Source: Syntrophothermus sp. DTU052
GTDB lineage: Bacteria > Bacillota > Syntrophomonadia > Syntrophomonadales > DTU052
Direction of reading: 5' to 3'
Assembly (NCBI GenBank): GCA_001512495.1
Contig: LFRU01000075.1
Location: forward strand, 1 to 34,530
Length of the DNA: 34,530 nucleotides
Below, in pieces: positions 17,356 to 34,211 of the stretch; the stretch's first letter is position 1, and every line of letters starts with the position of its first letter. Under the pieces are notes generated by a model that was not told where the DNA came from, did no database searches, and worked only from the letters and a program-made list of their open reading frames with translations. The position numbers and the translations under genes were made by a program.

Positions 17356-18032
17356 GTGTAGCGTGCCCAGCCAAGCACGCATCATTTCGCCGGTGAAAGT
17401 CCGGTTCGGGTAAACGCCAAGGTGCCCCGTAGCTAGGATACCTGCGTACGGAGAAATCTGTGCGTAGAATTGTCAAAGCTATCATGGCAAGACTGGAACT
17501 GACATTGCACCCGACCAAGACCCGGATAGTAGGTATGTGGACCGGGGAAGAAGGGTTTGACTTTCTGGGGATGCACCACCGGAAAACAAAGGCGGAAACA
17601 TCCAAAGCAAAGTATACTACACCACGCAACAGTGGCTAACCTCAAAGGCAGAACAGCATATACGGGATGTTGTAAAGGAGAGGCTAGCACCGCCTTCGGC
17701 CCGGGTACAGTCGTTGGAATCACATATCGAGTACCTGAATCCGAAAATACGCAGATGGAAAAATTATTATGCCACACCCTACAGTACTCGTAAAATGGCA
17801 AAGCTGGACTGGTATATCATTCAGCGATTTGCCCGCTGGTATGCCAAGAAAACAAAAAGGTGCCGACCATATAGCGGTTGGCGTCAAGTGGTGGAAATGT
17901 TAAACAAGCAGGGACTGCTGAAACTGGCATAATCGAACGCGCATGAATGACGAACATCGGAAAGCCGTATGGAGGAAAACTTCACGTACGGTTTGATGAG
18001 GAGGGGCTGGTATCCCCAGCCCTTCACTCTAC
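17356..18032 (+). mobile_element. degenerate group II intron, probably class C, internally deleted
   Basis: The 5' end GTGTAGCG at 17356 fits the GUGYG-type intron boundary, and the following about 95 bp have the look of domain I (GCCGGTGAAAGTCCGG, CCGTAGCTAGG). A maturase remnant follows (17461-17932). Domain V is recognisable at about 17962-17994: AAGCCGTA pairs with TACGGTTT, with the AGC triad and a capping GAAA-like loop. Domain VI is a GGGCTGG/CCAGCCC hairpin, ending near CTCTAC at 18032. Total length is about 677 bp against roughly 1.8-1.9 kb for intact relatives, so most of domains I-IV and the N-terminal reverse transcriptase are gone. It is inserted directly behind a terminator T tract. 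It cannot move on its own; splicing is doubtful. Boundaries are inferred to within a few bases. Confidence 0.85.
17461..17932 (+). pseudogene. group II intron reverse transcriptase/maturase, C-terminal remnant with frameshift
   Basis: The first segment (17461 to about 17600) encodes the end of the reverse transcriptase domain: LELTLHPTKTRIVG and EGFDFLGMHHR. The frame then shifts near 17595-17612. The second segment, to the stop at 17930-17932, encodes the maturase-specific X domain, with LNPKIRRWKNYY and a basic tail ending LNKQGLLKLA. The catalytic YADD region and everything before it are missing, so no active enzyme can be made. Confidence 0.88.
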
Positions 18033-33166: not shown

Positions 33167-33200
33167 GGAATTATAGAACAAAGCACGGTTGGATTTGTAT

Positions 33201-33659
33201 ATGAAATATGTCGTGATGCTTTTGATGTCCGTACTTTTGGGGAGCCTTATCGGTTACCTCAACCAGTACGGGAAGGGAACCGCAGGAGCCAGAACCTATG
33301 CATTGATATGCTGTGGGGCCACCCTAGTTACGCTGGTTTCAAAATACTTCTTTATAAGTCTGGGTAAGCCATGGTTTGCGGATCCGGGAAGATTAAGCGC
33401 GCAGATAATACCAACTCTGGGCTTTTTAGCCACGTTTATTCTGTGGTTTGTAGAGAGCCGGGCGGAGTGGATTTCAATCGGCGTCAATATGTGGCTGGCG
33501 GCCCTGGTCGACCTGATAATAGGATCCGGTTTTGGACTGCGTGCATTGCTAGCCATAGGGTTTGTAATTCTGGTGCTGCCGCTCATCAGAACAGCAGAGG
33601 AAAGGCTCCGCTACCGGACGGCAGCTCAGGACAAACCGACAGAAAAGGTGGAGCCGTAG
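33201..33659 (+). CDS. MgtC/SapB-family membrane protein (divergent)
   Basis: 152 residues with four or so membrane segments (about 3-20, 35-53, 68-86, 90-125). The order of the MgtC/SapB core is recognisable: GSLIGY, AGARTYALICCGATLVTLVS, DPGRLSAQIIPTLGFL. However, the usual acidic residue of the GLER motif is replaced (GYLNQYG), and the glycine pair after the third segment is missing. It is probably a MgtC-like protein with altered function. The start is uncertain: ATG 33201 or TTG 33189, both with poor ribosome sites. The stop lies inside the loop of the following terminator. Confidence 0.78.
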   Translation: MKYVVMLLMSVLLGSLIGYLNQYGKGTAGARTYALICCGATLVTLVSKYFFISLGKPWFADPGRLSAQIIPTLGFLATFILWFVESRAEWISIGVNMWLAALVDLIIGSGFGLRALLAIGFVILVLPLIRTAEERLRYRTAAQDKPTEKVEP

Positions 33660-33684
33660 ACTGCGGCGGTCTCCACCTTATTTT
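33645..33684 (+). terminator. intrinsic terminator after the MgtC-like gene
   Basis: AAGGTGGAG (33645-33653) pairs with CTCCACCTT (33671-33679), followed by ATTTTAT. The loop holds the TAG stop and a small internal GCCG/CGGC hairpin. It stands between the convergent genes. Confidence 0.8.
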
Positions 33685-33715: not shown

Positions 33716-33928
33716 TCAGGCTTTCTCGGATTTTGTCTTCTCCTCCAGTTTCTGCAGGTCGGATAGCAGGCGATCAACATCAACACCATGCATTTGAGCA
33801 CCCTGCTCAATAGTCTCAAAGAGAGCCCCACCTCACCCAACGCAGTGGATGCCGTAATCCAGAAACACTCGTGCGGCCCCCGGAATCTTTCTCAGCGCAT
33901 CACCAATTATGGTATTTTTTGATACCAT
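33716..33928 (-). CDS. candidate selenoprotein: DUF1858-type redox protein with CxxU
   Basis: Reading from ATG at 33928 (after GGGAGGTGA) to TGA at 33718-33716 gives 71 codons with one internal TGA at 33835-33833. The protein MVSKNTIIGDALRKIPGAA..., VFLDYGIHCVG-U-GGALFETIEQGAQMHG, VDVDRLLSDLQKLEE follows the DUF1858/hybrid-cluster-associated redox-disulfide family closely on both sides of the TGA. In that family the motif is HCxxC: here Cys29, Val30, Gly31, then UGA as residue 32. Sense continues for 38 codons beyond it. A hairpin TTGAGC-AGGGT-GCTCAA (33810-33794) begins 23 nt after the UGA, its G-rich apical loop 29-33 nt away, within the range of bacterial SECIS elements. mnmH in the window supports selenium use. 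The alternative is a pseudogene with a Cys-to-stop (TGC/TGT to TGA) change. Confidence 0.82.
33794..33810 (-). promoter_or_regulatory. SECIS-like hairpin
   Basis: On the minus strand, TTGAGC (33810-33805), loop AGGGT (33804-33800) and GCTCAA (33799-33794) form a perfect 6-bp stem, or 7-bp with A-T closure. It lies inside the coding frame downstream of the in-frame UGA. The loop with its AGG start resembles the AGGUCU apical region of the E. coli fdhF SECIS. Functional assignment is inference. Confidence 0.6.
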
Positions 33929-33958
33929 CAGTTCACCTCCCTTTTAAGAATCGGTTCT

Positions 33959-33982: not shown

Positions 33983-34007
33983 CGCCAGGGAGAAAATGTC
34001 CCTGGCG
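33983..34007 (-). terminator. intrinsic terminator of the SASP gene
   Basis: CGCCAGGGA (33983-33991) and TCCCTGGCG (33999-34007) form a 9-bp stem with a 7-nt loop. On the minus strand it is followed by TTTACTATT. It lies 9 bp after the SASP stop codon. Confidence 0.75.
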
Positions 34008-34016
34008 GGTACGCAG

Positions 34017-34211
34017 TTAGCTTTGCCGTCTTGAATTCTCCGATTTTAGACTCTGTTCGGCTTTCATAATCGCCAACTTAACCAGGTTGCCGCAGTCACG
34101 GGAAGATACGCCACCGAAGCCCTCACGAGCGACGATATGATCAACTCCCAGTTCCTTGGCCAGTTCCCACTTAAGTTCATCAGACATGAGTCCGGAGCGT
34201 TTTCGGCCCAT
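34017..34211 (-). CDS. sspF: small acid-soluble spore protein, SspF/alpha-beta type
   Basis: A 64-residue DNA-binding spore protein. The core LKWELAKELGVDHIVAREGFGGVSSRDCGNLVKLAIMKAEQSL carries the alpha/beta SASP pattern (ELAKELG helix, GG turn, SSRDCGNLVK), closest in layout to B. subtilis SspF (ELAKELGFYDVVQKEGWGG...AGN.VK.AI..AEQ). Such proteins coat forespore DNA and protect it from UV and heat, and are degraded on germination. The start is ATG 34211, after AGGAGGAGG. An AATACTA sequence (about 34247-34241) resembles a forespore sigma -10, but no matching -35 is convincing. Confidence 0.9.
   Translation of the reverse strand: MGRKRSGLMSDELKWELAKELGVDHIVAREGFGGVSSRDCGNLVKLAIMKAEQSLKSENSRRQS

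Follow-up and report, generated by a model that had tools for sequence, protein, structure and literature searches.

A predicted DUF1858 selenoprotein with a CxxU motif encoded across an in-frame TGA in Syntrophothermus sp. DTU052

Two reviews, of 2022 and 2026, include the DUF1858 domain-containing protein with a CxxU motif among the prokaryotic selenoprotein families (PMC9312934; PMC13188914 Table 1). The listed family corresponds to PF08984 and has WP_012065717.1 as its representative, and the family tables of both reviews give only CxxU for DUF1858, not UxxC (PMC9312934; PMC13188914). Neither the GOS 2008 paper nor the ISME J 2016 paper, both cited for the family, names DUF1858 in its main text. 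The Sec form of DUF1858 is already known, and the locus that we describe here is a new member. It lies in the window, by which we mean the whole 34,530-nt stretch of DNA that we analyzed, and its host is an anaerobic, spore-forming bacterium related to Syntrophothermus and Syntrophomonas.

The gene runs on the minus strand from an ATG at 33928-33926 to a terminal TGA at 33718-33716, with a further in-frame TGA at 33835-33833 (Table 1). Reading this internal TGA as Sec gives MVSKNTIIGDALRKIPGAARVFLDYGIHCVGUGGALFETIEQGAQMHGVDVDRLLSDLQKLEEKTKSEKA. A sequence-only reading of the window had proposed that two halves of one DUF1858 protein share a frame around the TGA, and that the TGA takes the place of the second Cys of a CxxC motif, giving HCVGU. 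The coordinates proved exact, and one domain scored over both halves, with profile matches of 75.9 bits for TIGR03980 (cut-off 44.95) and 61.4 bits for PF08984 (cut-off 32.2); the translation and the Cys found at this position in homologues confirmed the motif. Open reading frames listed by table 11 include no single frame across the in-frame TGA, and the locus offers a clean example of how gene callers split a small selenoprotein.

We identified a Shine-Dalgarno sequence, GGGAGGTGA, immediately 5' of the ATG. The same reading had credited the gene with a full Shine-Dalgarno sequence, promoter, and stop; the first and last are present, and the promoter claim stands in part, as a TATAAT-like box is the only promoter element visible and a consensus scan found no two-box sigma-70 site. 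Terminator-like hairpins stand on both sides, so the gene probably has its own transcript. Its neighborhood is kept within the genus, partly kept within the family, and different in the other family of the order. We note that elsewhere in the window, positions 17960-18032 (+) match the group II intron catalytic core in Rfam (RF00029, 45 bits).

Table 1. Features at and around the DUF1858 locus, in window coordinates.
Feature	Position	Strand	Description	Basis
DUF1858 selenoprotein gene (predicted)	33716..33928	-	70 residues, Sec at residue 32 (HCVGU)	TGA=U translation, TIGR03980/PF08984, relatives
Sec UGA codon (predicted)	33833..33835	-	second Cys of CxxC	aligned relatives
Bacterial SECIS hairpin (predicted)	33794..33810	-	stem UUGAGCA/UGCUCAA, loop GGG	direct inspection, folding, comparison
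Shine-Dalgarno sequence	33936..33942 (approximate)	-	GGGAGGT	direct inspection
Likely terminator	33642..33678 (approximate)	-	AAGGTGGAG..CTCCACCTTTT	direct inspection; loop exceeds limit of hairpin scan
Terminator-like hairpin	33983..34007	-	between upstream SASP gene and DUF1858 gene	hairpin scan
Alpha/beta-type small acid-soluble spore protein (SASP)	34017..34211	-	64 aa; neighbor, context only	PF00269 at gathering score
MgtC-family protein	33189..33659	+	convergent neighbor, context only	PF02308

We searched the genome that carries the gene (2.28 Mb, 99.5% complete) for selA, selB, selC, and selD, and all four are present. The matches score 579 bits for selA, 379 bits for selB, 381 bits for selD, and 72.7 bits for tRNA-Sec, and all lie within 10 kb of one contig (C87:24808-34136). 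ARAGORN confirmed the tRNA-Sec, with anticodon TCA. The selD gene (G000:C87:33216-34136) contains one in-frame TGA of its own and probably encodes a Sec-containing selenophosphate synthetase. Across the order, tRNA-Sec was found in 53 of 61 genomes, which is too common for a correlation test.

An order-wide comparison of the 61 genomes revealed alternation of Cys and UGA among DUF1858 homologues, with TGA in close relatives and Cys in more distant ones. The TGA is kept in three congeners (G001-G003), in a genome of the same family (G004), and in three genomes from another family of the order (G006, G008, and G012); the remaining genera have TGC or TGT at this codon. We also fetched 80 named loci with a degenerate peptide pattern that was neutral to codon choice, and these comprised 61 CxxC forms, 18 CxxU forms, and one UxxC form. 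Named CxxU relatives include Syntrophothermus and Syntrophomonas MAGs, other Bacillota MAGs, and one Sumerlaeota MAG. Neither TAA nor TAG occurred at the Sec codon in any relative. We looked as well for decay of the part downstream of the TGA and found it conserved: within the genus, pN/pS is 0.05-0.16 after the TGA, no higher than before it (0.12-0.30). Comparisons with G004 give a higher ratio after the TGA, 0.40-0.73, but they are saturated, and pS in that part is depressed by the fixed SECIS codons. Judged by these substitution ratios, purifying selection acts on the region 3' of the TGA, and the low within-genus values argue that the second half belongs to the translated protein.

A hairpin with a G-rich loop, TTGAGCAGGGTGCTCAA, follows at the bacterial SECIS distance, as had been proposed; its 7-bp stem begins 22 nt 3' of the TGA. 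The rules quoted for bSECIS elements ask for a loop of 3-9 nt with G in the first two loop positions, a stem of 4-16 bp, and a spacing of 16-37 nt (PMC13188914). The hairpin has a stem of 6-7 bp and a GGG loop at a distance of 29 nt from the TGA, in agreement with the loop, stem, and spacing rules, and its folding energy (-6.7 kcal/mol for the 17-mer and -7.4 for the 25-mer) is borderline, just short of the energy rule of at most -7.5 kcal/mol. The 17-mer was shuffled 200 times, and no shuffle folded as well. An Rfam scan at the locus returned no SECIS family match. Over a wider stretch of 50-86 nt the folding energy alone is unremarkable and does not single out the SECIS, so that the case for this element rests on comparison.

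We compared the hairpin over 104 distinct genes; the TGA class (n=34) comprises genes that have Sec in the second position and whose EQGA or EQAA segment could be aligned. Of these 34 TGA genes, 31 keep all five inner base pairs, whereas none of the 65 Cys genes does (Fisher p = 1.3e-22); since the genes are related, the p-value overstates how independent they are, yet the split is almost total. This split exists even though the encoded EQGA peptide is almost identical in the two classes. The Sec forms always spell EQGA as GAG CAG GGT/GCT GCT/GCC, with the GAG and CAG codons invariant in 34/34 TGA genes; Cys genes mix GAA with GAG and CAA with CAG. Conservation at the codon level thus offers an easy mark by which more members can be annotated. 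The pair at the base of the stem, scored in 28 distinct sequences, is C-G in 12, U-A in 10, U-G in two, and unpaired in four, and the exchange of U-A for C-G is compensatory. In MAG Ch109 (L072, L075, and L077), two Cys copies retain a near-intact SECIS sequence with a broken base (GAGCAGGGTGCTA), and a Sec copy with an intact hairpin stands beside them. The Cys copies look like a recent Sec-to-Cys replacement after duplication, leaving a fossil SECIS.

These comparisons bear directly on two ways in which the in-frame TGA might not encode Sec. It could mark a pseudogene or a sequencing error that turned TGC or TGT into TGA, as would be suggested by the stop that table 11 places in the frame and the resulting lack of one continuous ORF. 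However, the same TGA recurs in many species and several families, never as TAA or TAG, purifying selection acts on the downstream half, and a SECIS accompanies the TGA. The comparison of relatives effectively excludes a pseudogene or error, which we regard as extremely improbable. A UGA read as some residue other than Sec, through a suppressor tRNA or a reassigned code, is just as far-fetched, and we found nothing in its favor: the genome has a complete selA-selB-selC-selD set, ordinary genes in the window have open frames when TGA is taken as the table 11 stop, and the hairpin is tied to the TGA. On these grounds we rejected code reassignment. The alternation of TGA and Cys, the TGA-bound hairpin, and purifying selection strongly support the CxxU selenoprotein reading, and with the sel set and the conserved 3' part they bear out the proposal of a 70-residue selenoprotein. 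That proposal had named sequence-level observations that would refute it, and it withstood each of them. SelB and tRNA-Sec would decode the UGA because the SECIS hairpin follows inside the coding sequence.

AlphaFold predicts a domain of four helices (pLDDT 90.5), in which CxxU sits in the loop that precedes helix three. Its best structural matches are the DUF1858 NMR structures 2k5e (TM 0.80) and 2k53 (TM 0.76), followed by the N-terminal domain of YtfE. This last match, together with a similarity to ScdA_N of 28 bits (below the 32.5 cut-off), would fit a genuine selenoprotein that is not a redox carrier, in which CxxU binds a metal or an Fe-S cluster in a repair or scaffold module like that of ScdA/YtfE. 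Sec in the CxxC position, however, mostly serves redox chemistry. Two relatives with TGA lack the first Cys (RxxU and YxxU; L036 and L064) and retain the SECIS hairpin wholly or for the most part; loss of the partner Cys counts against metal binding and fits neither view neatly. We consider the metal-binding function unlikely, though it deserves far more weight than a pseudogene or a recoded UGA. A stand-alone DUF1858 CxxU selenoprotein is the best explanation of the whole, with a probability of roughly 0.95, and it would act as a small redox module.

As such a redox module, Cys29 and Sec32 may form a reversible selenenyl-sulfide, and the motif and family suggest a cytoplasmic thiol/selenol protein that would act as an electron carrier or a disulfide reductase partner. 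The Fe-S repair proteins ScdA and YtfE have a related N-terminal domain, and Hcp-associated domains are related to the family as well, which makes a part in NO or Fe-S stress plausible. The genome encodes Hcp (737.6 bits) on a separate contig, not adjacent to the DUF1858 gene. Two published links for the family are circumstantial: in Bradyrhizobium the NnrR denitrification regulon includes a DUF1858 gene (PMC6710368), and in Thermus a DUF1858-DUF2249 protein is linked with nitrate respiration (PMC6282519). Redox service to formate or electron-transfer complexes is an alternative role, suggested by the neighbors of a paralogue.

This paralogue is a second Sec-DUF1858 gene of the same genome, G000:C61:21436-21624 (-) (L053/L176), with a TGA at the second Cys (CFGU) and the hairpin GAGCAGGCTGCTC; a counterpart is found in G003 (L054). 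It overlaps the end of a cytochrome b561-type gene, which itself follows a 4Fe-4S protein gene, and by its predicted neighbors the arrangement is formate-dehydrogenase-like. A nitrite/sulfite reductase-like protein carries, as a fusion, a third DUF1858 domain of the Cys form (G000:C13:8206-8385 (-), L177:2499-3317).

Three Syntrophomonas-group genomes (L030/L144, L034, and L037) carry the Sec TGA at the first Cys instead (UxxC, MGULGC), and have a Cys-form relative within the same genus. We found no hairpin fitting the bSECIS loop rule at these loci, and we accordingly leave the UxxC selenoprotein forms as possible but unproven. Across 399 genomes from the phylum, a strict search for the UxxC pattern gave only one match, which was already known. 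Whether the family gained Sec at both CxxC positions, as CxxU here and in many relatives and as UxxC in three genomes, is in our judgment evenly balanced; if it did, the two ends of the disulfide are interchangeable for selenium.

The locus leaves the understanding of selenoproteins unchanged, and the Sec, Cys, and apparently swapped forms within one order make a good system for studies of Sec/Cys exchange. The N-terminal domain of ScdA/YtfE (RIC), DUF542, has a similar structure and a weak sequence match to the DUF1858 selenoprotein, but is fused to a di-iron domain there, and the selenoprotein falls below the ScdA_N Pfam cut-off. The TIGR03980 hybrid cluster protein-associated redox disulfide Cys forms, for example from Syntrophomonas wolfei, Caloramator, and Thorarchaeota, share the domain, length, EQGA motif, and CxxC frame, and differ in having Cys for Sec and in not keeping the hairpin. 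The listed DUF1858 CxxU family is the same family with the same Sec position, each known from in silico evidence only; to it our analysis adds another species and locus, covariation in the SECIS, and a comparison of Sec and Cys forms in 104 distinct genes.
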